In this document: positions 1,788 to 64,000 of the stretch, piece by piece
Layout of the letters: each line of letters starts with the position of its first letter
Position numbering within the stretch: the first letter of the stretch is position 1
Assembly (NCBI GenBank): GCA_010015805.1
Contig: ML978139.1
Span: 432,426 to 496,425 of the forward strand
Direction of reading: 5' to 3'
DNA length: 64,000 bases
DNA from: Rhizodiscina lignyota
Taxonomy: Eukaryota > Ascomycota > Dothideomycetes > Aulographales > Rhizodiscinaceae
The notes under the pieces: generated by a model
Told to the model about the DNA's origin: nothing
The model's database searches: none
What the model saw: only the letters and a program-made list of their open reading frames with translations
Translations under genes and position numbers: made by a program

Positions 1788-3490
<1,703 letters not shown>

Positions 3491-40532: not shown

Positions 40533-42065
40533 AATCTTTCTGCGGAGTGAAGAAAGTCAAGAAAGGAACAATAGCAATGAAAAGTCAGCCTGCTCATTGA
40601 AACGACCGTATAGCTTTGTGATGAAAGCGTGATTTCAGCTGACCCATTGCACAGATGCGAGCGTATGGACTGTAGTTAACGAATCTGGGATTTTTTATAT
40701 ATAATGCTTATCGAAACTCTCTGGTCGGTGACGAGTCAATACTTACTTAGAAATGGGATTGTTTGATCATACACTTTCGCGCAAACTTTTTGGAGCTTAT
40801 TGATTGACAAAATGCTACTTCAATACAGGCCCAGATCCCAAGAGTCAATGATGCCCATAGCTTCTGTTGCACAACTGGCACCAGTGGAGACCATCAAACA
40901 GCAGCATCCCGACACGCATCAATTCGTTTAATAATCTCGTATAAAGTATCCTCTAACGCCAGACTTCAGATGGGATCATATGAGAAGAGCAATGATGCTA
41001 TCGCAACGAGCGATGCCAATCATAGAATCAGCGAGACTGTATCGAGAATCTTGACTTGAAATTAGAAGTGCATCCTTCAACGGTTTCAGACAGATGAAAT
41101 GTAATGCATGCTGAGAGAGACTTCTCAAATATGACCATTCTGGCTTGCAACACTGCAATTACTTCACTGAATGTTCCAAGGAGGTACTAACGATGAAAAA
41201 TTGGGAAACAGTCACAAGAACAAAGTGCTGTGATTTGGGAGAAGGACGAGAACAACAGACCTGCTCACGTTTCTGACCTCCATTGCAACAGGAACGAAGT
41301 ATCGATGTATTCCCACAAATCATTCACCTCCGAGGCATCAATGCCTCAAAAGTCACCTCGAGTTATTGTGGTATTCGCAGCCTGGTGCTCTCTACCGCGA
41401 GCACTGAAATAACTAACCATCTCTTCGTTTATTTCATGCTCACTTTCTCATTCTCGATGTTATCACGACTCAATGCTGACATAGATCAATTGAAATGCAG
41501 AATGACGCGTCCCTTGCTGTGCCCTTCTTTTCACATAATTCTCGCGGCGATCTTATGCCCTGAATGCAGGCTGCAAGGCAGACTTCGTATTCACCAACGG
41601 TTGCATCGATCCGGCTAGAGTCCTGACTCCCAGCCAATTCCCTGCGACCCCTGAATATGAATATACAAAAGCTTGATCAATTGCCTGGACACACTAAAAG
41701 GCGTCGGTCAGCCTTTGGCTCACGAACAGATCACGCTAGACCGAGAAGGGTTCCATTCCTCCACAGCACAGCAAGCCCCGCATATACAACCATGAAGTCG
41801 AAATGAAGGAATCAGACGAAGGCTTCTTCTTGCAAGCCATATTCTGGAAATGAGCGTGGGAGGCATCGTTTGCGAAAGGCAGTTTTCAAAATGAGTGATT
41901 TCGGCGTAGACGACGCGGAGGATAAATTGATAGCAAGAGCGAGCATTTTCTATTCTCGAGACTCAAGGCGAATATCTTCCGACTTGCGACTCAACTTTCC
42001 TCTAATTTGCTCTACGTCAATCTCTCAATTTTCCCTCGTTCGGTTCCTCACTCACCTGTTCCGCA
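40533..42065. other. Intergenic region, no convincing gene
   Basis: About 1.5 kb without supported features. Confidence 0.35.
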
Positions 42066-43915
42066 ATGTTGTTCTTTGAGATTCTCTCCTCTCTGTCCCT
42101 GTGGCCTTTCGCAAAAGCCACCGCACAGACTTGCAAAGCTGTTCCCGGAACTGCTTTATGGCCATCTGCAGCTGCCTGGACATCTCTGAACCGCACACTC
42201 TCCGGTGCCCTCATCAAGTCAATCCCACCAGGCGGCGTCTGTCATCCAGGCTGGCCGAACTACAACCGGAATTCCTCATGCGCCGAGGTACAAAAGCTCT
42301 GGCTGACCTCTTGGGCCTTCCACTCAGATGACCCTGTAGGCAATGGGTACAACAACTGGAACAACGACAGCTGCTTGCCCAGTCCACTGGTTCCATGCAC
42401 CGACCTTGGATATCCAGTCTATGTTGTCAACGCAACGAAGTCGGAACATGTCCAAGCAGGAGTCAACTTTGCCCGTGACCACAATGTCCGACTCATCGTC
42501 AAGACTTCTGGTCATGACTTCCGCGGCCGCTCAGTAGCTCCATATTCCTTGTCAATCTGGACACACAATCTTCTTGGTCTGTCGTACCATGCGAAATTCG
42601 AACCTTCCGGCGGCAGATGTGACTGCGGAGACAACTGGCTGTCAGCGTACAATGGACCTGCAATCAAAATGGCCGCTGGCGAAAATCACGGGGCCGCGTT
42701 CGACTTTGCAAACAAGCACGGCCTCATGATTCATGTCGCCGGTGCTCGTACTGTCGGCCTCGGTGGTTACATCACAGGCGGCGGACATTCTTTGATCAGT
42801 TTCCAGAAAGGTCTCGCAGCTGACAGCATCTTGGAACTCACTGTTGTCCTTCCTTCAGGAGATATTGTCACTGCCAACGCATGCAAGAACCCCGATCTCT
42901 TCTGGGCACTTCGTGGCGGCGGTGGATCAACCGTCGGAGTCGTGCTCGACTTCACAACAAGAGCATGGCAGTCCGAATCCGTAGCAGATTATGCCTTTGG
43001 CTTTGGCAGCCCGACCTTCAACGACGATCGATTCTGGGAAGCAATGGGGTACATGGCCGGACTATTTCCGTCGCTCATTGAGGCCGGCATCATGACGTAC
43101 AGCAACATCTACCCAGCTAATGGGACTACATCACCTACCTTGTTGAACGCCAACATGCAGGCACCAAACATGAGTGCAGCTCGGATGGGTGCGATTCTTG
43201 AACCCATCGCAAAGTATATCAATGCGACATTTGCGCCAGACGTCATTGCCGAGATCTTTCCTGGTGGAGAGAAGGCTTCATACTATGAATGGTGGCAGGC
43301 GAACCAAGACACTACAACACCAGTCGGGGTCGATGCCGTCATCTCGTCTCGTCTGTTGGACGCCAAAGCGCTGAAGAGCCCCCAGTTCAAGACTCTTGCC
43401 AGAAAAGCCATGGGTGGCGGCGGGATCCAGATCAATGTTGTCGGTGGACCAGGCACTCATGCCTTCCCGAGTGATTGGAATGCTGTAACCCCAGCATGGA
43501 GGACAAGCTATGCGCATACACGTACGTTTATCTAATCAAGAACAACCTGAATTGCATTAACGAGATTCACAGTCACTGGCGTGTACGTACCTCCTTACGA
43601 TCCCGCAGAAGATGCGGCACAAATCTTCAACATAACGTACAATTTGAGCGCTGCTTTGCGTGAGCTTGCGCCAGATACTGGTTCTTACCTCAACGAAGTA
43701 AGACCATTCCAGGAATCCCAATTACATCGCTGCTAATGCTGACCGCACAGGCAAACTCATACGAACCCGACTTCCAGGACGCATTTTGGGGATCAAACTA
43801 CCCTCGTCTCCTCGAAATCAAGCGCAAAGTCGATCCTGGTGATGTTTTCTGGTGCCTTGGTTGTGCGGGAAGTGAGCGCTGGCAAGCGATTGGTGAAAAG
43901 CTGTGTCGAGTGTGA
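42066..43915 (+). CDS. Secreted FAD-linked oxidoreductase (berberine-bridge enzyme type)
   Basis: The model is join(42066..43521, 43573..43697, 43751..43915), 581 aa. The leader is MLFFEILSSLSLWPFAKATA. The FAD_binding_4 (PCMH) domain contains IVKTSGHDFRGRS with H150, the usual site of covalent 8-alpha-histidyl FAD, then GLGGYITGGGHSLIS and FWALRGGGGSTVGVVL. The BBE C-terminal domain is split over exons 2-3 and includes YPRLLEIKRKVDPGDVFWC. No second Cys flavin link is seen in the GGY.TGGGH region, so FAD is probably mono-covalent. Such enzymes oxidise sugars or alkaloid-like compounds outside the cell. Confidence 0.92.
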
Positions 43916-46237: not shown

Positions 46238-47844
46238 ATGGCTATCATTGAAATTACCGGAAATGTTCAGAGTCGCTTTATTCAGGCTGCGGTTCTCCTT
46301 CACTTGCTCGACCCAGTCCGTGGCGAGCCAACGACGCATGGCCTCGATCGAGACTTGAACGAATTCGAACTGAACCGAGAGCGTCTTCTTAAACGGAAGT
46401 TTCTCGACTCTTTTGCGCTTATCTGCGCAACGAAGAAAGACGGCGATACCGTATCGGCGGCTTCTTTAGAGGAGGGGCTTCCAGAGGGGACGGTCATTCG
46501 CGTCGCGAGCAATCACGGGGTCACAAAGGCTACCCTATGTGGGCTACAGGAACTGGTGTCTATCCTAAACGCTGTTGCCAGTGGCGGTGAGCAACACCAT
46601 CGAGATAACCAAACTTACTGCTTATAGTAGCTTCATGTCGCAGAGTGCATCGCGTCCCATAAGGAGTCGGAGGTCCCAGCACGGATCATCAGTCTAGATA
46701 TTGCCAGAATACGGTACTATCTAAAGGAACTCCGCAGCGTCAGCGACAACGTGAAAGAGGCCATCGGACGCTTCAAGTCGGGAACTGCGTATCTCCAAAC
46801 TGATCATTCTCGCTCCGTAAACTTCACTGAATGGATCGCACACGTCTTTGAGATAAGAGACTTGGCTCCGGATCTTGCTCCTAACAGTCTTATCGACCAC
46901 ATTTGGTGGGCTCTGGAAGCTCGGCGAACTTACCTGGAGTGCTTGAAGGCTGCATTCTCTACCAAGGGCCAGGCGTTCCCTCGATGGGTCTACCTATTCT
47001 CAAGCTTGGACGATATGCGGTCGCCTCTATGGCCTTACTCCGGCTTGCTTCCGAGTTTCCGTCTCTATTCAGCCCAATGCTTGTAGAACCTGCAATCGCT
47101 CCTCAAAAAGTCCAGTTCACAATCACGAAACAGGAGATGCCCCTGACGAGTGTGCTTCGAAGACTTGTCACGAGTAGTCAAGTAGACGATTACATTTCCC
47201 GGCTAGCTCGTGTCTGGGGTGTTGTGGACGCAGAGGTCCATTTCCGAGAGGCTTGTGCTTTAAGCCTATCTGTTCATGCCGAAATGCAGCTTCTCAACTT
47301 CTACGACCATAATCCCGGGAGAAGACCGGCATTCCGCTTTATTGGGGTGAGCAAGAAATCCTGTTTTCTCTGCCAGCGGTTTCTTGTAAACCATCCACAA
47401 GCTTTCGGCGTTTCGTCTTGCCACCAGAAGCTTTATCTCCCTTGGAGGCCTCCGCCCGCAGCCAATGCCACCATCTACAGACAGTACAAGAGTATTACAA
47501 CTGACCTTAGTAAAGATATGGAGGCGGCAGCGAAGCAGGAGTTGCAAAATCGTCTCGGTCTCCGCCGGCCTGTTCCTCCTGACTCAACTGCTGGTGTGTC
47601 TCTCTCTGGTTTGTCGGGAGAATTTGTGGTGGGGGAAACTCTATACGCGACGTCATCGCTCTCGCCGATTGACGTGGTGGACCTCACATCGCCAGATGAG
47701 GAACTGTCCCAGTCCTCGTTTAACATCTCTCCTGTCGGCGACGCATTCTCAATTGCTAAAATGGTATTCCATGTGATGCGCCCTGGCGAGACTCAGAGGC
47801 AAGACATTATCGCTATACGCGATATACTCTTAGGGGAAAACTGA
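46238..47844 (+). pseudogene. OTT_1508-like deaminase-family gene, frameshifted
   Basis: Three coding blocks follow in order: 46238 to about 46573, about 46631 to 46995, and about 46996 to 47844. The last holds the deaminase-like active site: SVHAEMQLLNF (His-Ala-Glu) and KKSCFLCQRFL (Cys-x2-Cys). This is the zinc pattern of the OTT_1508-like family, common in fungi and related by fold to nucleic-acid deaminases. Block 1 to block 2 needs an intron whose only in-frame donor is weak (GTTGCC at 46574). The canonical GTGAGC at 46585 would throw the frame. Between block 2 and block 3 (near 46992-46998) the frame changes by one base with no room for an intron. It is either a recent pseudogene or a sequence error. 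The biochemical role is unknown. Confidence 0.65.
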
Positions 47845-49310: not shown

Positions 49311-50747
49311 TTACCATTGCCGCACATTGACCCCCATGTTCTGCTTGAAGCTGAAGAAATCAGACAACACTGTGGCTACTCTCTCCACAATCATGTCGAT
49401 CTCGGCAGGTGTGACATTGTAAGGGGGTGCGATGAGGACATGGTCTCCAACAACACCGTCCACTGTGCCTTTGCCTGGGTATAGACATATGTTATATGGC
49501 TCCTGCATTGCCAGCTCGTGGATGGAATAGCCTGCGCTCAACTCCAGCGGCAACGGCTCCTTTGTGACCTTGTCCCGTACAACCTCTATCGACCAGAACA
49601 AGCCCCGCCCTCTGATCTCACCGACGTTTGAATGCGACGCGACGGCAGTGTGAAGGGATGTGGCAAGGCGGCTTCCCATTTCTCGCACGTTAGACAGCAG
49701 GCCATCTTCCTTGATGATGTTTTGGACTTCCAAGGCTGCAGCACATGCCGATGGGTGCGCCTGGAAGCTTTGGCCGTGTGAAAACTTTGAGGTGCCAGAT
49801 TCCAGAACTCGATTCACTTCACGGTCGATGAGCACACCAGATATCGGGACATATCCTGCACCGAAAGCTTTGCCAATGACCTGAATGTTGGGTACTACAT
49901 TTTCTTGTTCCCAGGCGTGCATGGTACCTGTTCTGCCCATGCCGCACATGACTTCGTCGAGGATCAGGAGGGCTCCATGCTTTTCGCAGACTCGCTTGAC
50001 CCCGTCAAAGTAGCCGTGAGGAGCAGGCACGGTGCCGGTTGATGCACCTGTCACCGGCTCTGCAACAAAGGCACAGACCGTGCCTTCAGGAAAGCGGGCA
50101 AATTCATCGTCCAGTTCTTGCACAAGTCGGGAAACGTATGCTTCGATCGATTCTCCGTCTCCGAGTCCACGATAGGTGTTGCATTGAGATACGCGGCTGC
50201 TGTTGGTAGGGAGGATCGGCTCGAATGGACCGCGACGACCTAGATGGCCACCAATTCCCAACGTTGTGAGCGTTGCGCCATGGTATGAGGGCAATCGCGC
50301 AATGAAATGTTTCCTAGATGGTTGAGGGTTCCGTAGTTCAAGATAATATTGTCTGGCAAGTTTCAGAGCCGCCTCCAGTGCTTCTGACCCAGAGCTGAGC
50401 GTCAGTAGCCTCGCCATTCTTCCTTTAGTCGAGTCTATGACCGTTGCTGCTAGCTCTTCACTTGCGGCTGTCGTGAAGAATTGGCTATGGCAGTAAGGCA
50501 CCGTGTCCATCTGTTTCCGGACCGCTGTTTTGACTCTGGCGTTGTCGTGACCCACGCATGCCACCGCAGAACCACCGCATGCATCGATTATCCGTCGTCC
50601 GTCGGCTGTATAATAATAGATTCCTGATGATTTGGTGATGACGGGTGCTTGTTGGCGGAGATCCCGGGACAATACGGCGCTGATGCTGCTGGCGTGCGCT
50701 TGCGCTTTCAAAGACCTTTGCATAAGGCGCCTTGAGATTTTGAACAT
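49311..50747 (-). CDS. Class-III PLP aminotransferase
   Basis: The protein has 478 aa from the ATG at 50747, in one exon. Fold-type I class-III features: YTADGRRIIDACGGSAVACV at the N-terminus, LLTLSSGSEALEAALKLAR (PLP phosphate loop), YHGATLTTLGIGG, LLILDEVMCGMGRTG (the Asp that holds the pyridine nitrogen), and VIGKAFGAGYVPISGVL with the Schiff-base Lys. Relatives act on omega-amino groups such as GABA, beta-alanine, ornithine, lysine or diaminobutyrate. The N-terminus (MFKISRRLMQRSLKAQAHAS) is basic and amphipathic, suggesting mitochondrial import. It is divergent from the aminomutase gene 645 bp away, so co-regulation is likely. Confidence 0.9.
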   Translation of the reverse strand: MFKISRRLMQRSLKAQAHASSISAVLSRDLRQQAPVITKSSGIYYYTADGRRIIDACGGSAVACVGHDNARVKTAVRKQMDTVPYCHSQFFTTAASEELAATVIDSTKGRMARLLTLSSGSEALEAALKLARQYYLELRNPQPSRKHFIARLPSYHGATLTTLGIGGHLGRRGPFEPILPTNSSRVSQCNTYRGLGDGESIEAYVSRLVQELDDEFARFPEGTVCAFVAEPVTGASTGTVPAPHGYFDGVKRVCEKHGALLILDEVMCGMGRTGTMHAWEQENVVPNIQVIGKAFGAGYVPISGVLIDREVNRVLESGTSKFSHGQSFQAHPSACAAALEVQNIIKEDGLLSNVREMGSRLATSLHTAVASHSNVGEIRGRGLFWSIEVVRDKVTKEPLPLELSAGYSIHELAMQEPYNICLYPGKGTVDGVVGDHVLIAPPYNVTPAEIDMIVERVATVLSDFFSFKQNMGVNVRQW

Positions 50748-51392
50748 GATGGACACTCGTGAGTCATTATTTGTGGCTAGAGGAAGTTGTAAACTTGCAA
50801 TCAAAATGGCTCATAAGGGCTATGTGAGTCCACAACGAGAGTTGCGGCATAGGCCACAGTATATGGCGTGAATGAAAATGGAACGAAGTTGGGGAACCAG
50901 ATTCGTAGCTTTTTTCGAATATTCTTAGAGCCTTTTTACAATATCAGATAATAATTGTTCAGCTCCTTTAGTAAGCCGCATGGGTTTGAAATTTGAATGG
51001 CCCCCTTGATTTGTGGGGGACGCTGTGACGCTGATCCCGGTGGGTTTTACAAGTAAGCGTACACCGCGTGACAAGGAAATAACGAAATGCAATAATAATG
51101 AGGAAGGGAGTAACAATGACGAAGAAATTAGCGCTTAGAATACTGTAGGCTTCAGCATGTTTACTAACTTAAGTTTCAGTTGACAAGAAATGCACCTAGT
51201 GTCTCTGTACCTGCACACCGATCCTGGTCTGACTGGCCACGCACCGGTAAAAGAGCTTGTCACTGACTATTTTCACAGCTCTCGAGCTCTTGTTCCATAT
51301 TCGTTGTGTCTTCTGTCTTGTTTGCTGTAATTTTCAGATACTCTTCATCATCGCTCAACGAGTTGTCAATATAATGACTTGGCCGATACATC
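50748..51392. promoter_or_regulatory. Bidirectional promoter of aminotransferase and aminomutase
   Basis: This is the shared upstream space of two divergent cluster genes. It holds a small hairpin, GGCCCCCTTG...TGTGGGGGAC, near 51000. A further 5' exon of the aminomutase may also be hidden here, because its N-terminus appears short. Confidence 0.35.
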
Positions 51393-52864
51393 ATGCTACC
51401 TAAAAACTACCAGCTCTTCTCCAAGAGTGCTCTTCCTGCACTCTTCAAAAGATTTCAGCCAAACCTCGATGGAGATAAGTTCATTGCGGCAGCTCATGTA
51501 TTTCCCATGCGAGTTAATAACCATGTGGTCGATGACTTGATTGATTGGTATATGAAACCTGGGTGTTTATATTCTTGAGTGGCTGATATGTATGTAGGTC
51601 AAATGCATCGACCGATCCCATGTTCAGACTGAGCATTCCTCAGCCAGATATGCTGCGTCCCCACCACCTTAACTCCATTTTAGCAGCCATGCGGAGCCCA
51701 GACACCACGAAAGTGGAAATGCGAGAAATCTCAGAGTCAATACGAAGACTTATGAATCCCCATCCAGCCGGGCAAAAGGAAGAAAATGTGCCTCGGGTGA
51801 ATGGTGAGCCTGTCGCCGGCTTACAGCACAAGTACCGCGAAACTGTACTTTTCTTCCCTTCTGAGGTGAGCTATAACGAGTCTAAGCATTTTTGAATTGA
51901 AGCAGTTCATTAAAGTATTCAGGCACAATTCTGTCACGCGTTTTGTACATATTGCTTTAGATGGGCGCAGTTCACCTCTGTGGGCTCAGACCAGGCATTC
52001 AAGACGTCAGATCGAGATCTTCTTGTGCAGTATATCCAACAACATCCCAGGGTTACCGACGTCTTATTCACTGGAGGAGATCCAATGGTTATGTCCGCCT
52101 CAGCCTTACGCCACTATACGAAGGGATTATATGGACCAGACAGCCCACCGCATTTCAATACTATCCGGATCGGGACAAAGTCGTTAGCGTGGTGGCCATA
52201 TCGTTTCGTAACAGACCCGGATGCTAAAGAAACGCTAAAGCTTTTCTCTGAGATTGTGAATTCTGGAAAACATCTTACTATTCAAGCGCATTTCAGCCAC
52301 CCCAGAGAAGTGGAGCATCCGGTAGCCCAGGAAGCCATCAAGCTTATTCGCATGACCGGTGCGCAGATCCGATCCCAAGCCCCACTCATCAATCATGTCA
52401 ATAACGACCCTGATACCTGGGAGTCTATGTGGAAGCTTCAAACACGGCTCGGTATAATCCCTTACTACATGTTCGTGGAGCGTGACACGGGCGCTCGCGA
52501 CTATTTCTCCGTCCCACTCGCAGAAGTCCTGCGAATATTCAAAACTGCATACTCGCGCTTGCCCGGTACGGCACGGACAGTTCGAGGTCCGTCGATGTCG
52601 GCAGGGCCGGGGAAAGTGTGTGTCTTGGGCAAAACAACCATAAACAATGAAGAATGCTTTGCGCTTATGTTCTTGCAAAGCAGGAATCCGAAATGGACAG
52701 AGAGGATATTTTTTGCGAAATACAACCGTGAAGCGGTATGGTTGGATGACCTCGAGCCTGCTTTTGGAGAGACAGAGTTCTTCTTTCAAAAAGAATATGA
52801 CGAGCAGAGAGAAATGGTAAACATTGGATCATCGGGCCAGCTTAGCCTTAGTGGTGAAGTTTAG
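51393..52864 (+). CDS. KamA-family radical-SAM 2,3-aminomutase
   Basis: The model is join(51393..51547, 51598..51865, 51923..52864), about 454 aa. The radical-SAM cluster motif CHAFCTYC (Cx3Cx2C) is created by the second splice and binds the 4Fe-4S cluster and S-adenosylmethionine. VLFTGGDPMVM is the SAM-binding GGD motif. SAGPGKVCVLG holds the Lys expected to bind PLP (KamA PGGGGK region). Other family blocks are LQHKYRETVLFFPSE and QAHFSHPREV. Such enzymes move an alpha-amino group to the beta carbon. By-eye alignment puts Arg (in FVERDTG) and Ser (in PSMSAGPGK) where lysine 2,3-aminomutase has two lysine-binding Asp, so another substrate is likely. The protein is shorter at the N-terminus than bacterial KamA, and a missed first exon is possible. 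Fungal KamA genes are uncommon. Confidence 0.85.
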
Positions 52865-53382
52865 TACTGGAATGTTTTCTTGACCGAATTGGTCTGAATT
52901 TTGGTTCTGTACCTAGATGTGTAGGGAGTTGGGGAAAACTAAGTGATAAGAAGTATTTCTGTCAAGGAAGCTTCCGGTCTTATGCGAGGATGTGGAATGA
53001 CGGTGCTAGAAATGCGGTTTATCCTACGATAGCTTCAAATAAGGTCCAAATGAAAGAGATAAGTATTTCCTAAGGGAACATGAAGACCCTCATACCGTGA
53101 GGATTTGGATGGGACAAATCATAGCCTAAGGTAACGCAGAAAGCTCACTATCATGTTCGACTTGGAGACGAGTCTTTCTCAATGCAGCCATTTGCGATCA
53201 AAAATCCGAGTAAAACTTCTGGCCATCCGCTGCCTGTGTATCTGGACCGTTTGTGCCAGGCCAATGATGAGCGAAATAGAAGCTATAGTATATCAAGTAA
53301 TTTACGGTTTTGCAAGAATAAAAGGTTTCATAAATCTATCGGAAATTAACCTGTACCTTTCCATAATTGCTGACCGAAGGAA
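52865..53382. other. Intergenic region between convergent genes
   Basis: This is 3' space of the aminomutase and the adenylating enzyme. No gene is seen. Confidence 0.35.
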
Positions 53383-55319
53383 TTATCGGCGGCCATGAAC
53401 ACCCCAATCATCAGCGAAAGGAATCTCTGGCCAAATCTCAATGCCATGCGGCGCATCAACAGCAGTCTTTCCTTGTGCGTCCCCGAAATAGTCAGCGAAA
53501 ACTCGCTTTCTTACAAGCTTGCCAGAGAGAGTGCGGGGGAGTTCTTCCTCGGGCTTGAGAACACGTAGGACGAGGGGCAACATATAATCTGACATGTTGG
53601 CCGCCGCGAGGTCTGACCGGATCTTAGCCAGATTGATGATGCCGTCATTTGGCATGTTGGCGATATTCGGCTTCAACACCACTGCGCAGAGCTCGCGCAC
53701 TCGTGTGTTCGGGACACCAACAACACACGCATCCGACACGTAAGGAAGCTCCATCACAGCGTGCTCTGCATCAATGGTCGGTATATAGAACTGCTTGAAC
53801 TGCACATCTAATAGACTATGAGCTGTAATGATCTGACGGGAACGATCGGGAAGCTTACAATCTGAACCTTTCCGCCCAAAAATAAAGAACTTGCCATTTT
53901 CATCGACTTTACCGAGGTCACTAGTCTTGTAGAACCCGTCCTCGTCAAAGGCTGCACGGGTGCTTTCCTCACGGCCAATGTAACTAAATCGGATTAGAGA
54001 CACAATAAACAGGCACGATTGTCATGCATATGTGCGTAGACTCACTGTGTCATCATTGTCTTGGACTTGACACGAATCTCGCCTAAATCCTCTAGACCCT
54101 CTATACCCTCTGGCACGAGCTTCATCTCAGCCCCGGGCCAAGGGGACCCGATGCAGCCCTACGTTCCTCTATGCTTAGAATATCGATCTTTAAAATCAAT
54201 TGAGGTGACGTACCGTTGGACCAGAAATCTCACTGGATACAATCATGCCGGTCTCGGCCACAGCATATATGCACTCAAACGGCTTTCCCGTCAAGTCCAC
54301 CCAAAACTGTCGCACCGAAGCTTCAATCTGGCGAGAGCCAACCATGATCGAGCGCAGGCCTCGGAACATGGTGCAATACTTCTTCCTAGCTCCTTCTGAT
54401 AGCGTACCAGTCCGGGGATCCGTGATCAAGTCCTTCATATCCTTCAGATAAGTTGGGTAGAACGTAGCGCGGGTCACGCGGTGATCGACAAAGGCTTGCA
54501 TTACATCAGGTACAGGAGCACGCAAGTCGAGGGAGTACAGGATCTTCCCTGAGAGCACAGGCTCAATGAGCGAATCCGCTGCGCCGACCCAATGGTACGG
54601 ACGGTAGTTCAGACTGATACCGTCGGGCTCTGCAAGGCTAAGAGGGACCAAAGCCGTTCGAGGAAGACAAACCGCCTTTGCATCTCCAGTAGTTCCTGAT
54701 GAGAAAATTGCGAGTCCAGGACTGTCGTCGTCCAAAGGCAAGTTGTGGTCAATTTTGACATCAATGCGGTCCTTGTGTTGTGCATCACTGGATATGGGAC
54801 CTGCCGCCAACGAGATCGGAGAAGCATTCGAATTTGCGAAATCACAGATATTACGCGCTTCTTGGTCGCAGTCTTTTCCATAGAGGATACATGTCGCCCT
54901 GGTTGTTTTCAACCAAAAGTAGGCCTGCTCGGGTAGGATATCGTTTGCTGTGCCAATGACTGCGTCAACAAAGTCGTGTAAACGTAAACATATGACTTGA
55001 ATTACTTACCTAACGGTATGGCTGCACCACCGAGGGCGCGAATGGCAAACAGACCAACGAGAAACTCATATCCACTCTTGACAACAATAAACATATATGG
55101 AGCTTCGTGGTGCAAGAGGCCTCGTTCGTTGAGGGCCAAAGGAGGCAACTTCTGGAGAACAGCGGTGCGCGTACTCAGGACGTCGGCGACTAAGTCTGCA
55201 TAGCTCTTCTCGAATCCCATCACATCGTGTACTACAACTTCCATAAAAGGTCTTTGCTGGCTGACGCGAAGCAGCTGCTTCAGCATGATGTCGGATGGGA
55301 AGCTGCACGGAGTAGCCAT
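53383..55319 (-). CDS. AMP-dependent acyl/aminoacyl synthetase
   Basis: The model is complement(join(53383..53807, 53859..53983, 54046..54158, 54214..54947, 55010..55319)), 568 aa. ANL-superfamily core motifs: LAIFSSGTTGDAKAV (P-loop A3), FECIYAVAETGMI (A5), FYKTSDLGKVDENGKFFIFG (A7 and hinge), YVSDACVVGVPN, and PRTLSGKLVRKRV with the A10 Lys. There is no thiolation domain, so it is a stand-alone CoA ligase or amide-forming adenylase. The last intron (51 nt) is a multiple of three and stop-free, so its retention would only insert 17 residues next to the hinge. It lies convergent to the aminomutase and probably activates an acid in the same pathway. The substrate cannot be predicted. Confidence 0.9.
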
Positions 55320-55759
55320 GGCTGCTGTTCAGTCTACACAATTGGTGAGTGAAACGTACGTAGGAATCGTAACAAAGCATGAGCAAGAAGAAGCTGTAGA
55401 ATTTGGATGGGCTCAACAAAAGAGCGGCGTTTTGAGATGCCGAAGACGCGTGCAATGATGAACGCAATCATGATCAAGGGCAAAAAGCGGTCTGTTTAGA
55501 TCATTTTAGCAACCTCAGCTGACTGTTCACAAAGCTTCTTAGAAGTAGCGAGCATAGTCACACAGTAGCACGCAGTATCAGGCCTGACTGGCAGCATCTT
55601 GAAGCACTTACAAGGTACTCCCTTCAGCGACGACGCCGCATACACATCTCACAGGGCCTGCGGAAATAGCACATGTCCCGGGCTAGGCTCTCTTTAACAC
55701 CCTCGGGTGCAACAAGTTAAATTTAGAGGCTTCAAACCAAGTGCAAGTTTCAGGCGCAG
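55320..55759. other. Upstream region of the adenylating enzyme
   Basis: Normal-composition sequence before the RIP-like block. No gene is seen. Confidence 0.35.
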
Positions 55760-56900
55760 CCCAAGAGGTCCTATAGAGTAACCACTAAGTAAAGTTTTGC
55801 GAACAAAGCTTCTCTTAATACTTTTTTAAGTCCGGAGTCAATAGTGAAAATTGAAGAATCTAAAAGCTCTAGTATTATATAAAATATAAATAATTAGGTA
55901 GGATAGAAAGACTATAACATAGGACGGAGAGAACTTTACCAAAAATTACCCTATAGCGGTAAGACTCTCCTACAAACACTTTATCCGAGATATTCGCTGC
56001 CTAGAAAATCATCTTACGTAACTCTCTTACCTCTAGGCTACCCTTCCTAATCCCGGTTCTCGCGCGTAGCACTTAGCCTTACTAACCGCTATGTCTTTAC
56101 TTCCTAGGATGTAACTATAAATATTGGCTATAACTAGCTTACATTTAAACTAGAATTTCGGAGAGACGGTTCTTCCTAACCTTGCGAACACCCGCGGCCG
56201 CGAGGGCAGTTAAAATCGCGACAACATACTAGTTTAGCGAAACTCCGCGAGAAGATATTCTTTAGCCTAAAGAATAGCTAAATCCGTATTATTCGATTAG
56301 TATATAGCCTTTAGTATATAGTCTTATTTTAATTGCCCTTTTAGCTGTAGGTATAAAGTATAACGTCGATCTCTTTTCTAATCCTATTAGCTCGTAGAAT
56401 ACGAGAATTTCCCTAATCGCGTTAGCTAGTATCTATACATATGTTATAAATTAGTGAATAGTTAAGCTAAATCGAATACTAATCTCTAAAATTTAGGCTA
56501 AATAACAGTATTTTAAACTATAGCTAACCGCTTTAAGAGAGTAGGATTTTTTGAAGATATTTAGATCTTCCTATATCTATACATAGATTAACGTCCGAAC
56601 TTATTAGTAATTGGCTAACTAAAATAGACGACGTTATATATTTTGCCTTACGTAGTTTTACGTAGCTAGGGGTATACTTAATTTCCGAATTAGGGGAGGA
56701 CTATATATTCGCTCCTCTCTATAGGTATTTACAAAATATCTCGAAAACCTTACGAGCCCCTAAACATATCCTACCGCCGCATAAATTATAAAACGCTTCT
56801 TAGGTTATTTAACAAGGATTAAAGGCTCCGTATAGACGGCTTAGCGGGCCGCTCGCGGTACGCAATCAGTAGGGGTTAATAGAGTACTAATACAGTCTTT
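55760..56900. repeat. RIP-like TA-rich degenerate repeat block
   Basis: Composition changes abruptly: TA dinucleotides (CTA, TTA, TAG) are abundant while CA and TG are scarce and CG is retained. That is the expected footprint of CpA-to-TpA repeat-induced point mutation. No open frame of useful length remains. It is probably a mutated transposable element inserted between cluster genes. The element family is no longer recognisable. Confidence 0.7.
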
Positions 56901-57140
56901 CCTCTTAATACCTTACAGATTCGTAATTAAGATCATCCTATGACTTCCTTATTTAATGTCTTACAGGTTTATTTCTTAGGTCATCATATTTAGAGCTTTT
57001 CAGATTATGTGTTCGTTCCCTTCATACCTTGCAGTTCGTGACTCGGATGATATCATGAGCTTTTCAAACCAGAAATCTGCTTCCTTTAATGCCTGCAGGT
57101 TCGTGACACAGATCACATTATGCGCTCTTCGAATTGGGTG
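56897..57140 (+). repeat. Four tandem degenerate units of about 47-71 bp
   Basis: Units start near 56897, 56944, 57015 and 57079. Each shows a C/T-rich start (CTTCCTTTAAT), then a CTTACAG or CCTGCAGG core, TTCGTGAC, GATCATCAT and AGCTTTTC. Similarity rises towards the gene at 57464. Confidence 0.6.
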
Positions 57141-57147
57141 AGATTGA

Positions 57148-57322
57148 TGAAACATGAACTTTCAAGGCTGAGTGTAGTCGGTGGAGTATGGCCTAAAAAT
57201 AGGGTCAGTCACGATTTGTGCTTGGGGGTTCGAACCTGTGAAGCATCAACTTTCAATTGTGAATGCAGTCGGTGAAGTATGACCTAAAAATATGTCAGTA
57301 CACGATATATGCTTTGGGGTTT
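57148..57322 (+). repeat. Two imperfect direct repeats of about 85 bp in a promoter
   Basis: Copies lie at about 57148-57231 and 57239-57322. They share CAACTTTCAA-like starts, GCAGTCGGTGAAGTATG, CCTAAAAATA, GTCAGT and CACGAT...TGCTTGGGGGTT. They lie about 140-320 bp before the start codon of the opine-synthase-like gene. Confidence 0.65.
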
Positions 57323-57339
57323 GGAAGACGAGAAGAAGG

Positions 57340-57348
57340 CATATAAAG
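57340..57348 (+). promoter_or_regulatory. TATA box of the opine-synthase-like gene
   Basis: CATATAAAG lies about 120 bp before the start codon at 57464, directly downstream of the repeated promoter elements. Confidence 0.55.
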
Positions 57349-57463
57349 CCTTTCAAGTCCGTTGACCATTCGTGCCTTATCCTCCATAATCATCAAGCAC
57401 TGTCTACATTGCTACTTCAACAATCTTTGCTGTCCAGCTTTTTCTAGACACTAAGAAGCAGTC

Positions 57464-58599
57464 ATGACCATCACCGCAAGCCACCGCATCAACGTGAAAT
57501 GGCCCCAGCTGGGTATTACCGTTAGAGCGGAGATGGATGTGAACACCAATCCACGACTGGTCAACTTGTTGTTCGAAAACTTGCCCTACCGTTCGCTCCA
57601 GAACCATGCTTTAGTTTCCGGAGATCACTTGTACCACTTGGTGCCGACGGAAAAGCTCATTGTAAGTGAAATCCTTCATACAACAGAATTGCACTCTAGC
57701 TAATCACCTCGTCTTTCTACTTTGTAGTACACTCAAGCGGACTTCAAGGTCCCCGACAGGACGACCGAGCCCAATGGCACGGTCTTCCTCTCCGGGCTCC
57801 AGCATTTGGCCATCAAGTATGGCCCACTGACTGAGTACCTCCCAGCGGCACCATGTGGCTATGTCATTCCTGAGGACATGCCCGCCCTTTGTGAAGCTGG
57901 CCAGGGAATCTGGAAGGCTTGCAACGAAACAAAGCAGGTTATTGAAGTCATCGTTTGGGATGCTTCTCAGCCGGAGCCTACCGGGCATCTTCCTCTTATC
58001 CTCGAGCGGAAGGGATGCTCCAACGAAGTTGTTAAATTGGTTGAGGCGATTCACGATGAGGTAAGGCCAAATACCTTGAGTACAGACAACCAGCCTACAC
58101 ATCGCTCACATGTTTTCAACTTCATTAGACTGAAAAATCCTGGTCTGGCATTTCCAACGATCTTAGCCTGGTGCACATGGGACTGACACCATCGCGTGCT
58201 GGCTCGAAGGGCTCCTACTTCGCGACCATGGTCTTCGCGAACGGAGAGATTCGCCCGCTGGGGTACAACGTCTTGAACAACATCCTGAAGGTGGCCGTAA
58301 TGCAGCCGCAGTTTGACATTAAGCATCTCGTAACCCTTTACGAGACGTTCGCCTCCGTTCCCGCCGAGTTTGTGGGCTACGCGGGTGCTAACTGGTTGTA
58401 CGCCACTCATCAGAGGATTACCACGCTTCTCAGGAAAACCGTTGTCTCAAATCCTAATGCAGATGATGCCCGTGAGGACTTCTTGGCCCTAGTCAGCGCC
58501 TTTTCCAAATACGTCAACCTGCTTAACGCGCAGAACCTGCATGTATTCCCTTGGAAGCATACTACGGAATATCCAATCCCAAGGTGGCTAATGTGGTAG
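57464..58599 (+). CDS. Cucumopine-synthase-like protein (opine synthase-like)
   Basis: The model is join(57464..57661, 57728..58060, 58129..58599), 333 aa, with all junctions GT-AG and in frame. The N-terminal half (INVKWPQLGITVRAEMD, LLFENLPYRSLQNHALVSGD, PAAPCGYVIPEDMPAL) looks like a small beta-barrel of cyclophilin/DUF3830 type. The C-terminal half is helical (PRAGSKGSYFATMVFANGEI-like block, then FDIKHLVTLYETFASVPAEF). I associate this two-part layout with cucumopine synthase, the Agrobacterium enzyme that condenses histidine with 2-oxoglutarate, and with its fungal relatives. The family call is from memory and moderate. If right, the enzyme may join an amino compound to an alpha-keto acid in this cluster. 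There is no leader peptide. Confidence 0.6.
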
Positions 58600-59167
58600 A
58601 GTCAATTTGGATTGGACTAGGCGGCGCAGAATATGGGTTCAATATTCAAGTTTATAGATCAGGAAGATATTTAGCTCAAGGAGAAGATAGAAAAATTGTG
58701 CTCCATCTATGGTAACTAAACTTTGCTACGAATCTTTGAGCGACAATGGGAGATGGGTCCAATCTTTTAGTATAAATTTGCGTTTGATTTAATACACTAC
58801 TCGTTTGGTACCTACTGTTTTCTAAGAAGATTGATTTGAAAAACTTTAACCTCGTTTGGTACCCTACATACAGATTACATACGAAGATTCAAGGATGAAG
58901 TCCGAATAAGGTGGGCCAAGCAAGTAATACGGGGAAGCTGCCGAAATGCGAGTAAGCTAAGCCAAACCGAAAGCTTACGACTTGCGGCGGAAGCGGAATT
59001 TCGTCTTACCTAAGTCCCAATGTTTATGCAAGACCCGCCCAGGTGAGACTTCCCTTTTGAGGTGCAATCTCCAAGTTCATAAGCAAAGAGATCTGCCGTC
59101 GCCTAGGAAAATGAATCAGACTATACCAAGTACAACTACGCAAAATATTATTGACTAGTCCGAGAAC
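58600..59167. promoter_or_regulatory. Intergenic region with repeated CTCGTTTGGTACC
   Basis: The exact 13-mer CTCGTTTGGTACC occurs at 58800-58812 and 58851-58863, about 310-370 bp before the monooxygenase start. It may be a regulator site. No gene is seen. Confidence 0.4.
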
Positions 59168-59708
59168 ATGACATCTGTTTTCGCAACAATCATCGTGTCG
59201 CCTCGTCCCGGCAAAACGGAACGAGTAAGTGCTCCCCATTTCACATTGCTTGCCTATAAAATATCTACAGCGCCGAGGGAATCTAATAGAGCATCTATGT
59301 AGGTCAAGGATCTTCTTTCGAAAGTTGGCAAGCAAGCCGAGGAGACTCTGAAGTCAGTTGTACAGTATCAGCTTTTCGAGCAAACTGGGAGAGACGGAAA
59401 AGATCTGGAAAATGGAAAAATCATTGTGCACATGCAATGTAAGTCATGCCAGTTATACGTGATCTTCCCACCACATACGGGGCATCTTGGGCAATAACTC
59501 GCTTCTGTGTGCTCTATGGAAGAGAAGAACGTTGTACACGTTGCTGATGGATTCGTTCACAGATGCGAATCTCGAGGCCGTTCTCGCATACCATACCTTA
59601 ACTGCCTTCCAAAGCTTCCGAAGCGCTATCGAAGAAGAACAGCTCCTCGCTACTCCACTTGAGGTTCAAATGTGTAAATTATTTGGGGGATTTGCTGCAC
59701 GGAGCTAA
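59168..59708 (+). CDS. ABM-type small monooxygenase (YgiN-like)
   Basis: The model is join(59168..59224, 59303..59438, 59563..59708), 112 aa. The ferredoxin-like fold of antibiotic-biosynthesis monooxygenases is suggested by FATIIVSPRPGKTERVKDLL, LKSVVQYQLFEQTGRDG, IIVHMQYANLEAVLAYHTLT and the length of about 100-110 aa. The usual ABM phrase 'E.Y.....L..H...' corresponds to YANLEAVLAYHTLTAFQSF here. These cofactor-free enzymes oxidise quinols or act as dimeric tailoring proteins in natural-product pathways. It is on the same strand as its neighbours and sits inside the presumed cluster. Confidence 0.72.
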
Positions 59709-59887
59709 TCCACGTAAGCCGAGCTGTATTACATATATATATTGAATTCGTCTACGCGGTCCCTTGCTTTCTTCTTCAGCTTCGTAATATTGGATATACG
59801 GTGTTCTCTCTTTCACTACACCACCTTTACTACCGGGGGATCCGTACACGTATCAGGCCTTCACTGGCTCTCACGACCGAACAACAT

Positions 59888-60578
59888 ATGATCCCCAGGT
59901 TCATAATGACCATTCCGAGAACGGCAAGCCGAAACCTTTTACTTCGTCAAAAAGGGCCTTTGCAACGATTTCTCCGTACCCTCAGCACCACCCATCCCCC
60001 ACGACCTAACCCGAAGCGCGTTGACATGCCACGACCGTCAAGTTATTCACTTACTAGAAGGTCATTCTCTGCCGCAAAATCAGCATCACATAATAACTGG
60101 TCGCCACCAAAGGCGGGTGAAGAGTATGTGGAGACTCTCGCAATCGAAGACACTTTACCAATGCAAAATAGGCTTTATACCACCTTCATCGATAAAGGAG
60201 GAAACGAACACAAGATAGCTGTATCAAAAGGTGATAACCTGCTGGACGTTGCACAAGCGAACGATATCGACATTGAAGGTACGAACTACGAAGCTCCGTC
60301 TTTGCGATATTTGCCGCAGCTAAAGCAGAACAGGAGCTTGTCAACGATCATGCGCATGCTCCACGTGCCACGTAATAGTTGATGGCGAGGAAATGTATGA
60401 AAAAATGACTGAGCCTGACGATAGCGAGAATGATATGCTTGATTTGGCGTTTGGTCTCACCAAGACGTCGAGGCTGGGCTGCCAGGTTATCATAGACGAG
60501 GCACTGGACGGCATAAGAGTGAAGCTGCCTTCGATGACGAGAAACGCGCAAGCTAGCGACTTTAGCAGCCAGAAGTAG
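59888..60578 (+). CDS. Mitochondrial-type 2Fe-2S ferredoxin (adrenodoxin family)
   Basis: The model is join(59888..60278, 60334..60578), about 211 aa. The start could instead be the ATG at 59906. A basic Ser/Arg-rich presequence ([20 protein letters not shown]) indicates mitochondrial import. The ferredoxin domain starts at [20 protein letters not shown] and [15 protein letters not shown]. The cluster ligands are C-x5-C-x2-C in [16 protein letters not shown], the splice falling just before, and the fourth in RLGCQVII. Adrenodoxin-like partners [16 protein letters not shown] and [14 protein letters not shown] are clear. The usual GG between the first cysteines is QR here. It resembles Yah1 (Fe-S and haem A synthesis) but lies inside a biosynthetic cluster, so it may be a dedicated electron donor. 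Confidence 0.9.
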
Positions 60579-61348
60579 AGATTAGGCCATGGAACGGTGG
60601 CGGAGCCGCGGAGCCGTGGCGATTAGGAATTCTGGTGTCCGCCATCGCTGTTTTTTAGGTCGTCATGATCTCAGTGCAATGAAAACTCATGAAGACGTAG
60701 AACTAGCTATGATTGTGAAGTTTACTGTTTATAGTACATACATTCCGCTCCTTGGAGGGGAGTAACTCCAACGACCCTCAAAATTAAACGACACATGGTC
60801 CGATCACAAAGATCAATGATAGCTTGAGAGTCACTGATGACTCTGCTCTAGCCTCCTTAAACTGACCAGCTTGTCTAATGCCTCTCGCGGCAAAAGTTAG
60901 CTCCATGAAGCCGCTTGTGGCAATCTCGGCGAGAATTCCCTTACGGATGCCCTTGTCCAAAGGCTGCAGTATTTGGAGAATGATGCCTGCGCCACTCTGG
61001 GTGCTGACTACAGGGTGGTACATATTGTATACAAGATGTGGAGCCACATGGTGGAGGGATCTACAATGGCCATCATGTCAAGCTGAGTAAAGTAAGCGTT
61101 CGACTGATCGACAACGCACATGCGTGTGCATCATCGATCAAATATTTTGTGAGACTTAGACTTAGAGTCCTTGGCCCCTTTCCGCGGTCTCAACTATTTT
61201 CATTGCCGCTTTGACCCCTTAAACGCTGGCCTGTGCGAACATGGGGACACGAATAGACTCTCCTCCGTAGGTATTTTTCATCAATTTCGTTATAGGTCCT
61301 GGATTTTGGAATTTCACATTCGTTCTACCAACAGACAGCCTCGACAAG
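60579..61348. other. Intergenic region with a small minus-strand frame
   Basis: A minus-strand frame (60784-61047, 87 codons, starting MAPHLVYNMYHPVV) looks protein-like and ends in a hydrophobic segment. A splice-acceptor-like TTTACTCAG lies just upstream near 61083. No family is recognised, so I do not call a gene. Confidence 0.3.
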
Positions 61349-63121
61349 ATGAGCAGCGCCGAAGTCTCGCTTCACCATTCCACCCATCAGTTGGTGGTAC
61401 CTCGAGAAGGAGCTGTGATCTGTACTTTACAGACCAGTCCTTCACAGGCCAGCACTTCACATTATGTATTACTGCAGCCGTCAGGTCTCGATGCCTTGGT
61501 CGATTTCGACGGCGTGGGAGACCCGCTCAACCCGCAAAACTGGTCTTTTTCCAAGAAAGTTAGAATAACGGGGCTATGGGCGTTGACGACGTGCTGGATC
61601 ACGTTGGCCTCGGCCATCTACGCCGCAGGCACGCAGCAGATCAGCCAGGAATTCGAGGTGACTGAAGAAGTGGCCAACGCCGGGACGAGTCTCCTGGTGT
61701 TTGGCTTTGCCATCGGCCCTATGCTCTGGGCGCCACTGTGTGAGCTGTATGGCCGGAAGTGGCCTTCTCTTATTGTACGTTTCCTTTGTTGTTTTCGCGT
61801 CAATGATTTTGCGCCAACTTTTTCTTCAAGCCGTATTTCATTAGCGCCGCTTTCGCCTTCGGCACTGGGGCGGCGAAAGACATCCAGACGGTTCTCATCA
61901 CTCGCTTCTTCGCCGGCGTGCTTGGAAGCGCTCCGATCTCCGTCACCGGCGGGGCAATTGTGGACATTTGGGCACCGAAGCAGCGTGGAACGCCAATCGT
62001 TTGCTACGGCGTCACTCTCGCGGCAGCTCCCACCGTAGGGCCTGTCATCGGCGGCGGCTTGGTTGCCGCCTCTCAGCACAGTGGCTGGCGCTGGACCCAG
62101 TATCTAACGGGCATTCTCATGATGATCCAGTTCTTTGTCGATGCTCTTTTTCTCGACGAGAGTCAACCAGACGTACTTCTGACTCGAAAGGCGCAGCGGC
62201 TGAGACACGAGACTGGCAACTTTGCCCTTCATTCCAAAGTGAGCAGCCTTACCTTATCTGCCCAGGTAATGTGCGCTGATGTGGTAAATAAAGCGGGAAG
62301 AGTCAGGGCCCTCTATCAATGATCTGGTCAATACCTACCTTGTCCGGCCATTTCAGATGCTTCTCGATCCAATTTGCCAGTTGTTTACAATCTACACGTC
62401 CTTCGTGTTTGGTAGGCTTCTTCCACCCTGAATGCTGTCGATTGATCCGCTGACTTGGATGACAACAGCCATCTTGTACGCCAGCTTGACGAGCTTTGCA
62501 ATCGAGTACCAGGAAGACAGGATGTTGGGTCCAGTGGTAGGGGAACTGCCGTTCCTTGCAATGTTGGTCGGTTGTTTCTTCGCTGCTGCCGCCAACATCT
62601 ACAACAACAACTACTACACAAAACGCTTCGTCGCCAACAACTTCAAGCCGGTAGCCGAAGCACGGTTGCCGCCTATGATGTACGGGGGTTTTACCTTTGC
62701 TGGAGGCCTGTTCTTGTTCGGGTGTAAGTGAATGGCATGCCGTCCTTGAATATGCGTACTAATACCACATGGGATAGGGACTTCTTCACAGCATGTTTCG
62801 AGCCCCTGGCCTTCCATTATTGGCGTTTTCCTGACCGGTTTCGGCTTCACGACTATTTTCCAGGCCGCCCTCCAATATTTGGTCGACACATTCACTCTTT
62901 ATAGCGCAAGCGCCGTCGCTGCCAACACCTTCGTGCGGTCCCTCGCTGCTGGTGCTTTCCCACTCTTCGTGTCGTCGATGTATAGGAAGCTCGGAATTGA
63001 CTGGGGCACTACTGTCTTTGCACTTTTTGGCGTTGTCCTGCTACCTGCACCATTCCTGTTTTTCAAATGGGGATTTAAAATTCGCGCTAGAGGACGGTGG
63101 AGCAGACTGTCCACTTTATAA
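61349..63121 (+). CDS. MFS exporter, DHA1 drug/polyamine-transporter type
   Basis: The model is join(61349..61774, 61831..62238, 62294..62411, 62469..62723, 62778..63121), 516 aa, all in frame. Family features: DPLNPQNWSFSKKVRI before helix 1 (a hallmark of fungal DHA1 transporters), PLCELYGRKWPSL (motif A), APTVGPVIGGGLVAASQHSGWRWTQYL (motif C and the WRW phrase), and FAIEYQEDRMLGPVVG. Twelve helices are expected in the plasma membrane. Being the last gene before a RIP-like block and next to the ferredoxin, it probably exports the cluster product or gives self-resistance. Homologues also move drugs and polyamines. Confidence 0.9.
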
Positions 63122-64000
63122 TGCCTTTCTACCTAGACTAATACTGTATACAACTAGGACTTATTCAAGCGGCCTAACACGTATGTTCGCTCTAGTTACT
63201 ATATAACCGCAGGTCGTTTTAGTGGCCGGCGTACGGTCCTCCCCCTAAAACCGTACGTTTAGATCCCTACTAAAACCTCATATCGTCTAAAAGTAACTAA
63301 ACTAATCTACGCCTCCGCGACACTCCCTTTTAACTAGTCTAGCAATGTTAGCGTGCTTAGAGAGTAGTAGTAGCGGAGAGGGCGTCTTTAAATTACTGCC
63401 TTAGTCGCTATACTTAGAGTAGTACTATAAGGTAGTCGTATACGCGGAGTATAGTAGTAGCTACACCCTCCGGACTATCGACTAGTACTTGTAGGACTAG
63501 TATTACATGTTAAAGTAGGATAGGGCGGCCCTTAGGCAGTTCTTCTTAGATAGTAATAGGCTACTAGCCGCCTCTAACGCGGACGTTGTCTAGCCTAAGG
63601 ATAGTATATCTCCAATCTACGGCCTCTTAATATATATAGGCTTTAAGTACTATCTATACTACTCCGACTCTAGTAATAATAATAACGATAATAGTAATAG
63701 TAATAATAATAATAGAAATAACGATAAAAGCAAAAGTTATAGCTATAACTATAATCGCAGTTATAGGTCTTACTCTTATAATAATACTAATATATTAAAG
63801 TACTACTATACTATATATAGCCTAAAGTTAGGGTACGAATACTATTACCCGCTATATCGCTATACTAAGATATAGACTCTATAGGCGAAGAAAGGCTAAC
63901 TCGTGCCACACGACCGGTTCGAGTCGAACCGATTTGAACCTGCTAACAAATTTAGCGCCGGCAGGATAAGGAGGGGGTCGGACCGATTTAGGGTTTGGAG
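63122..64000. repeat. RIP-like TA-rich repeat block at right edge
   Basis: Shortly after the exporter stop the sequence turns TA-rich, with CTA and TAG triplets everywhere and few CA or TG, but CG is kept. Runs of TAA/ATA microsatellite lie at about 63670-63740. A perfect 17-bp palindrome CGGTTCGAGTCGAACCG is at 63915-63931. No coding capacity remains, and the block continues beyond the window. Confidence 0.65.

Follow-up and report, generated by a model that had tools for sequence, protein, structure and literature searches.

A predicted non-lysine radical-SAM aminomutase beside a putative beta-carboline-type gene set at a scaffold end of Rhizodiscina lignyota

Introduction

Do seven metabolic genes that adjoin one another on a fungal scaffold serve one pathway, or do they represent separate functions that have come to lie side by side? 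The question is raised by a block of genes near one end of a 496,425-base scaffold of Rhizodiscina lignyota, of which we analyzed the last 64 kb (hereafter the window, 64,000 bases, with the scaffold ending at window base 64000). The block had been put forward as a biosynthetic cluster built round a radical S-adenosylmethionine (SAM) aminomutase and yielding a beta-amino-acid or opine-like small molecule. We propose instead that two neighboring metabolic functions meet at a scaffold end marked by signs of repeat-induced point mutation (RIP), namely (a) an aminomutase of what we call the R/S subfamily and (b) a gene set for a beta-carboline-type alkaloid, a reading to which we give an even chance. 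We infer the substrates, the role of the ferredoxin and the assignment of the genes to (a) and (b).

The more general result of the analysis is the R/S aminomutase subfamily, and the locus itself is plausible as an unusual metabolic block. Public records label R/S aminomutases as lysine 2,3-aminomutase, although these proteins are without the lysine-binding residues; they occur in bacteria (including marine and halophilic genera), fungi, animals and protists, and the question of their substrate bears on eukaryotic beta-amino acid metabolism. The listings of a literature search, together with passages of papers, held nothing recognized as an account of this locus or of the R/S subfamily.

A subfamily of aminomutases predicted to act on an acidic amino acid

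The aminomutase gene is present in a single copy in the R. lignyota genome, at the following position.

51393 to 52864, forward strand: radical-SAM and pyridoxal phosphate (PLP) aminomutase of the R/S subfamily, 454 aa, with exons 51393-51547, 51598-51865 and 51923-52864; identical to public protein P0001

Aligned with lysine 2,3-aminomutase (KamA/AblA; PDB 2A5H), the protein keeps the CX3CX2C cysteines, a carboxylate-binding arginine (Arg154, equivalent to Arg134 of the lysine enzyme) and the PLP lysine (372, equivalent to 337), and this alignment makes it clearly homologous to the KamA superfamily despite scores below the curated cut-offs (Pfam Radical_SAM, 20.6 bits vs. 29.5; NCBIfam KamA-family, 115.5 vs. 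199.2). The original prediction of a KamA-like 2,3-aminomutase is sound as far as the superfamily residues go, but it fails if read as a lysine enzyme. We take the substrate-binding aspartates of lysine 2,3-aminomutase to be residues 293 and 330, and in the alignment Arg328 lies on Asp293 and Ser365 on Asp330. The Structure-Function Linkage Database paper describes two aspartates as binding the substrate in lysine 2,3-aminomutase and gives the replacement of both by Lys and Asn as the mark of a glutamate 2,3-aminomutase mislabeled as the lysine enzyme (PMC3965090).

Both replacements recur in the relatives. Protein comparisons covered the best 120 of 8000 matches to the aminomutase, the best 120 of 144 for the Pictet-Spenglerase and the best 120 of 1051 for the adenylating enzyme, one row being a 90%-identity cluster under one name. 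Arg328 is found in 120/120 aminomutase rows and Ser365 in 119/120, alongside the PLP lysine in 120/120, Arg154 in 119/120 and each cysteine in 119/120. At 80 bacterial loci, the best of at least 592 relatives, the arginine is present in all 80 and the serine in 79, with one Val, and each cysteine, the carboxylate-binding arginine and the PLP lysine are kept in 80/80. The lysine-aminomutase model, run as a control against 185 gammaproteobacterial genomes, matched in 155 of them, with 0/185 over the curated cut-off; among the 28 loci with a usable frame (30 were returned), the first position was Asp in 28/28 and the second was Asp in 11 and Glu in 17. In a tree of 40 proteins these 28 control KamA-family proteins, which we label lysine/EpmB-type, split from 12 R/S proteins with support of 100/100. 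The fungal protein scores 94.7 bits against the lysine 2,3-aminomutase model TIGR03820, far under its cut-off of 525.4. Lysine 2,3-aminomutase was thus rejected on the change of Asp293 to Arg and of Asp330 to Ser, on this score and on the separate tree branch. Judged by these residues the aminomutase is a non-lysine enzyme, and, by the same signature, a distinct R/S subfamily spans bacteria, fungi, animals and protists.

We read Arg/Ser as a third pattern at the substrate site, one that points to an acidic substrate with glutamate likeliest. The R/S aminomutases would probably act on an acidic amino acid, shifting its alpha-amino group to the beta position (most likely glutamate to beta-glutamate), with Arg328 holding the side-chain carboxylate at the site of lysine aminomutase Asp293. 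Glutamate 2,3-aminomutase resembles the R. lignyota enzyme in that both lysine-binding aspartates are replaced, one of them by a basic residue. The distribution of the bacterial members also favors this reading: the titles of 37/80 loci, picked by score and tallied by genus with no control for sampling, name Halomonas/Billgrantia (14), Marinobacter (12), Pseudoalteromonas (5), Balneolales and relatives (4) and Nocardiopsis (2), all of them marine or salt-loving groups. Beta-glutamate is a reported osmolyte, in Nocardiopsis halophila among others, according to PMC1224877.

Several points weigh against this substrate. Known glutamate 2,3-aminomutases carry Lys/Asn where the R/S subfamily carries Arg/Ser, and the R. 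lignyota enzyme scores only 83.7 bits against the glutamate 2,3-aminomutase model TIGR04368, whose cut-off is 650. Glutamate as the putative substrate is read from two residues, and the lysine/EpmB label of the 28 control proteins is our own, none of them passing the lysine-aminomutase cut-off.

A McbB-type Pictet-Spenglerase in place of an opine synthase

The proposed alkaloid set includes two genes at the following positions.

57464 to 58599, forward strand: McbB-type Pictet-Spenglerase (annotated cucumopine synthase), 333 aa, with exons 57464-57661, 57728-58060 and 58129-58599; identical to public protein P0121
53383 to 55319, reverse strand: stand-alone ANL adenylating enzyme (AfeA), 568 aa, with exons 55010-55319, 54214-54947, 54046-54158, 53859-53983 and 53383-53807; identical to public protein P0241

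The first of these carries the domain PF18631 (Cucumopine_C, 164 bits). Among solved structures its nearest relative is 3x27 (E 3.9e-87, colinear over the full length), which bears the PDB label 'Cucumopine synthase' and whose residues, in a by-eye comparison, match those of Marinactinospora thermotolerans P0166; the fungal protein is 49% identical to P0166 over 322 aligned positions. Its R77, H92 and E102 are equivalent to R72, H87 and E97 of McbB, which we assume to have catalytic roles, and these positions are invariant among the homologues compared (115/115, 115/115 and 119/119 ungapped rows). A review covers the structure of M. thermotolerans McbB, crystallized with tryptophan, and describes how the enzyme condenses tryptophan and oxaloacetaldehyde, after which decarboxylation and oxidation take place (PMC7024544). 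A second enzyme, KslB, uses alpha-ketoglutarate as the partner, and only STR, McbB and KslB were counted in 2025 as known enzymes that form the beta-carboline skeleton (PMC12513458).

By these comparisons the supposed opine synthase is a McbB-type Pictet-Spenglerase, for which a beta-carboline-like ring, not an opine, would be the expected product. The enzyme would be expected to close a ring between tryptophan (or histidine) and a carbonyl compound, such as an aldehyde or keto acid, and would have no use for the reductive step of opine dehydrogenases. Relatives on Agrobacterium/Rhizobium plasmids, presumably the cucumopine-type enzymes of tumor-inducing and root-inducing (Ti/Ri) plasmids, do match the window protein, with its Cucumopine_C domain, over 93% of the query in tblastn; however, these rows (13 of 17 plasmid records; 12/13 labeled DUF3830, one hypothetical) reach only 26.6-27.8% identity, against 49% for McbB, and the best plasmid row overall is from Nonomuraea (39.5%). 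A cucumopine (opine) synthase was rejected on this comparison, and with it goes the opine-like product that had been expected of the locus.

The gene is single-copy in the R. lignyota genome. In a tree of the homologues compared, built by a quick method whose output warned that long branches meet, one clade of 46 rows (45 named fungal, one metagenomic; SH-aLRT 100) has R. lignyota at its base. This clade suggests that enzymatic beta-carboline-type chemistry may occur in fungi; literature searches on this point turned up no account of such a fungal enzyme. Aspergillus alliaceus has two McbB-type genes (P0146 and P0160; ETB97_011704 and ETB97_011708) with locus tags four apart, both on 134,909-base contigs, which suggests a local duplication.

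The adenylating enzyme and the marinacarboline cluster

The marinacarboline cluster of M. thermotolerans (mcbA-mcbB-mcbC) offers one of the closest known parallels, with a McbB-type Pictet-Spenglerase near a stand-alone ANL ligase in both. The fungal AfeA carries AMP-binding (95 bits) and AMP-binding_C (29.7 bits) domains, and its closest other match in its own genome is 29% identical. The enzyme is rare among the matches compared: its relatives (E <= 1e-38) come from eight named fungi besides R. lignyota and one unnamed protein, with Trichoderma chlorosporum at 50%, Beauveria bassiana at 45%, and Tolypocladium, Ophiocordyceps, Chaetomium, Xylariales, Aspergillus oleicola and Neophaeococcomyces at 27-42% among the matches listed. 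Among solved structures, the malonyl-CoA ligase 3nyq matches best (E 8.4e-27), and 6sq8, which we take to be McbA, ranks 48th of the 60 rows shown (E 2.8e-8). AfeA as an orthologue of McbA was rejected, McbA being no nearer than many other ANL enzymes.

A search of 394 actinobacterial genomes for McbB gave matches in nine, strong (E <= 6e-87) in six. At 2/6 strong loci (L117 and L118) the McbB-type gene has an ANL ligase no more than 1.5 kb away, each locus being 3.9 kb long, so that neighbors are visible within about 1.5 kb, and the crude caller of open reading frames (ORFs) having missed the McbB-type ORF in 4/6; L117 matches P0166 at 100% identity and so represents the known Marinactinospora locus. 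The class pairing of ligase and McbB-type gene is common to R. lignyota and the marinacarboline cluster; orthology is not. The R. lignyota locus further differs in being fungal and intron-bearing, in having a ligase not specifically close to McbA and no mcbC counterpart recognized by eye, and in adding aminomutase, aminotransferase, ferredoxin and ABM-like genes. In the proposed alkaloid set the nearby ligase could activate the product of the Pictet-Spenglerase or its partner acid, and the ABM-like protein and an exporter of the MFS family would complete the set.

Gene content of the block

Gene models built by removing short GT-AG introns gave complete reading frames for 7/7 genes between 49311 and 63122. 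Three of the seven models (the aminomutase, the Pictet-Spenglerase and the adenylating enzyme) agree residue for residue with public R. lignyota proteins along their whole length, and five pass a curated Pfam cut-off (aminotransferase III, Cucumopine_C, Fer2, MFS_1 and AMP-binding). The seven adjoining genes of the original prediction are thereby confirmed, and most of the enzyme classes assigned to them were right, the opine synthase apart and with the ABM domain below its cut-off. The remaining features are as follows.

49311 to 50747, reverse strand: class-III aminotransferase, 478 aa, intronless (PF00202, 266.5 bits; NF005685, 522.9 bits, cut-off 485)
55501 to 57000, no strand: AT-rich RIP-like stretch between the adenylating enzyme and the Pictet-Spenglerase (composite RIP index 0.62-1.32, GC 35-42%)
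57016 to 57321, forward strand: two diverged tandem duplications immediately 5' of the Pictet-Spenglerase (53-nt unit, 72%; 83-nt unit, 77%)
59168 to 59708, forward strand: small ABM-like protein, 112 aa, three exons (PF03992, a weak match of 17.9 bits vs. a cut-off of 23.1, E 0.0036)
59888 to 60579, forward strand: mitochondrial-type [2Fe-2S] ferredoxin (Yah1/adrenodoxin type), 211 aa, two exons (PF00111, 43.1 bits)
61349 to 63122, forward strand: MFS transporter, 516 aa, five exons, candidate exporter (PF07690, 106 bits)
63001 to 64000, no strand: RIP-like stretch up to the scaffold end (composite RIP index 2.38 and 1.40)

The genes run in the order aminotransferase (-), aminomutase (+), adenylating enzyme (-), RIP-like AT-rich stretch, Pictet-Spenglerase (+), ABM-like (+), ferredoxin (+) and MFS (+), followed by RIP-like DNA, with the aminotransferase and aminomutase genes head to head and 645 bp apart. 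From 44 to 64 kb, in steps of 500 bases, the composite RIP index exceeds 0.5 solely at 55.5-57.0 kb (0.62, 1.32 and 1.10) and at 63.0-64.0 kb, and a single other bin, at 48.0 kb, rises to 0.46. Elsewhere in the genome the stretch at 55501 to 57000 is matched twice, in short and degenerate form, in a search that skipped simple or very common words. The tandem duplications may be a duplicated promoter; the 16-base core of this repeat has no other copy in the window with up to three mismatches allowed. No polyketide synthase or non-ribosomal peptide synthetase, as had been said of the block, and no regulator gene was recognized by eye among the listed window ORFs of at least 100 aa, some of which were profile-scanned.

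Second copies of the ferredoxin and the aminotransferase

The window ferredoxin passes the Fer2 cut-off, carries the ligand cysteines in what we take to be the adrenodoxin motif and, by eye, begins with a presequence-like N-terminus. In these respects it resembles the Yah1/adrenodoxin mitochondrial ferredoxins; it differs in being a second copy, placed among metabolic genes, with a divergent 12-residue stretch. Contig C10 carries its paralogue, with 68% identity over 116 aa and the sequence GACGGSCACSTC at the place where the window copy differs. The aminotransferase likewise has a paralogue (C1:607193-608766), 54-61% identical in the two better exons and 39-47% in the others, and its Arg-rich N-terminus looks by eye like a mitochondrial presequence.

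A link between the ferredoxin and the aminomutase is made plausible by the extra ferredoxin copy in the block together with one row among the aminomutase matches listed, P0116 (653 aa), in which an adrenodoxin-type Fer2 domain stands N-terminal to an R/S-type aminomutase. The Fer2 part of P0116 and the window ferredoxin share 40% identity over 92 aa. P0116 is probably eukaryotic by its place in a careful tree, at the base of the eukaryotic clade (100/98), and the fusion possibly points to the electron donor of R/S aminomutases. Presequence-like basic N-terminal extensions were also seen by eye in the animal and protist relatives that were read and in one basidiomycete (P0025, P0030, P0033, P0039 and P0081). 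It is plausible, then, that the mitochondrial-type [2Fe-2S] ferredoxin serves the aminomutase, whose iron-sulfur cluster it would feed with electrons. Against this stand the facts that P0116 is a single case, a metagenomic protein from a 2,324-base contig, that it falls beside bacterial rows in a quick tree, and that the R. lignyota aminomutase is by eye without a clear presequence.

One pathway or two neighboring functions

Adjacency alone is no proof of one pathway, and a single seven-gene pathway is not supported. In the species lists, which were compared by eye and in which absence is approximate, no named species besides R. lignyota has both the aminomutase and the Pictet-Spenglerase among the matches listed; none of the ligase's eight other named species has the aminomutase; and only Beauveria bassiana has both the Pictet-Spenglerase and the ligase. 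This single overlap does not bear out a conserved seven-gene cluster. Besides R. lignyota, 30 named species of fungi have the aminomutase among its best 120 of 8000 matches. In a quick tree the R. lignyota protein forms a six-member clade with one unnamed protein and those of Cercospora, Recurvomyces, Zymoseptoria and Talaromyces rugulosus, and eukaryotic aminomutases group broadly by lineage, which is consistent with an old, patchily kept gene and not with one traveling with the Pictet-Spenglerase.

The original prediction held that unlinked homologues would speak against it, and in bacteria little linkage was found. Unlike the ablA-ablB operon, the bacterial R/S aminomutase genes (L018-L097, 80 loci) are without a conserved neighbor: no neighbor family occurs at more than 12/80 loci, and the aminotransferase is the sole one of the six remaining window families to lie nearby, at 5/80 loci (four of them Pseudoalteromonas), as judged from crude ORFs, the caller having recovered the aminomutase ORF in 66/80 and several loci being 3-5 kb long. 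At one of the five (L030), the aminotransferase adjoins a biotin-synthase-like ORF, by eye, and is therefore probably a biotin aminotransferase. A bacterial operon as the explanation of the aminomutase's partners was rejected on the same count. PF18631 was found in 0/5 aminomutase-bearing bacterial genomes, in a search in which 14 controls likewise gave no match and which therefore carries no weight. In bacteria a single gene, that of the R/S aminomutase, may suffice to make a compatible solute.

Nor did six promoters of the block have a clear motif in common: in a simple test, the sharing of 6- to 9-mers was near the shuffled expectation, with the largest excesses being one 6-mer in 6/6 (0.34 expected) and one 9-mer in three (0.2 expected). 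We separate the block into two functions because the species lists barely overlap, RIP-like DNA lies between the halves, no bacterial neighbor recurs and no promoter k-mer is clear. Weighing against the separation, a 14-kb span with seven metabolic genes, of which two are diverged paralogues of genes elsewhere in the genome, is also how one fungal cluster would appear, and transposon debris is no bar to a cluster.

Such a cluster might run as one hybrid pathway, in which the aminomutase (with its ferredoxin) and the aminotransferase supply a beta-amino acid or oxo-acid, the Pictet-Spenglerase makes the ring, the ANL ligase, acting like McbA, links these units through an amide, and the MFS transporter exports the product. 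This we consider unlikely. The adjacency of the genes, the single copies of aminomutase and Pictet-Spenglerase, a ligase without a close second copy, the aminotransferase and ferredoxin as diverged second copies, the ANL-McbB pairing at two of six bacterial loci (including the known one of Marinactinospora) and the presence of ligase and Pictet-Spenglerase together in B. bassiana are all in keeping with it; but the RIP-like gap between the halves, the failure of aminomutase and Pictet-Spenglerase to coincide in another named species among the matches listed, the want of a clear common promoter motif and a ligase no nearer McbA (6sq8, E 2.8e-8) than many other ANL enzymes tell against it.

At the other extreme, the genes may be chance neighbors, unrelated and patchily distributed, that share no pathway even within the halves and have gathered at a RIP-affected scaffold end. 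The RIP-like flanks and the scaffold end itself, the mixed orientations, the differing species distributions, the lack of a clear common promoter motif and of a regulator recognized by eye among the listed ORFs would all be expected of such a set. We nevertheless consider it equally unlikely, given the density of small-molecule enzymes together with an exporter, the second copies of aminotransferase and ferredoxin, and the ANL-McbB pairing at 2/6 bacterial loci.

The pathway first proposed for the block is very improbable. It starts from a beta-amino acid (beta-lysine if the name holds), which undergoes transamination or is joined to a keto acid by an opine-type synthase, before activation and export. 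Most of the named enzyme classes are present, but the aminomutase is without both lysine-binding aspartates (TIGR03820, 94.7 vs. 525.4 bits) and the 'opine' protein is nearer McbB than the Agrobacterium/Rhizobium plasmid proteins.

A bolder proposal, which we regard as improbable as a whole, would go beyond the two-function reading that we prefer. Here the R/S subfamily would be an unrecognized beta-glutamate-forming (acidic amino acid) 2,3-aminomutase, ancient, mitochondrial in eukaryotes and with a mitochondrial-type ferredoxin as its reductant; R. lignyota would have recruited it, together with a ferredoxin copy of its own, to a fungal McbA/McbB-like alkaloid pathway joining a beta-carboline to a beta-amino acid.

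Other genes of the window

Just upstream of the block lies a gene for an OTT_1508-like deaminase family protein (46903-47841, forward strand; PF14441, 70.4 bits). About 6 kb upstream, an FAD-linked oxidase (42033-43535, forward strand; FAD_binding_4, 52.8 bits), berberine-bridge-like by eye, is a possible extra tailoring gene. At the opposite end of the window, a homocitrate synthase-like exon (1984-3057, forward strand) scores 358.9 bits against TIGR02146 (cut-off 413.55, part of the gene having been scanned); homocitrate synthase is an enzyme of lysine biosynthesis.

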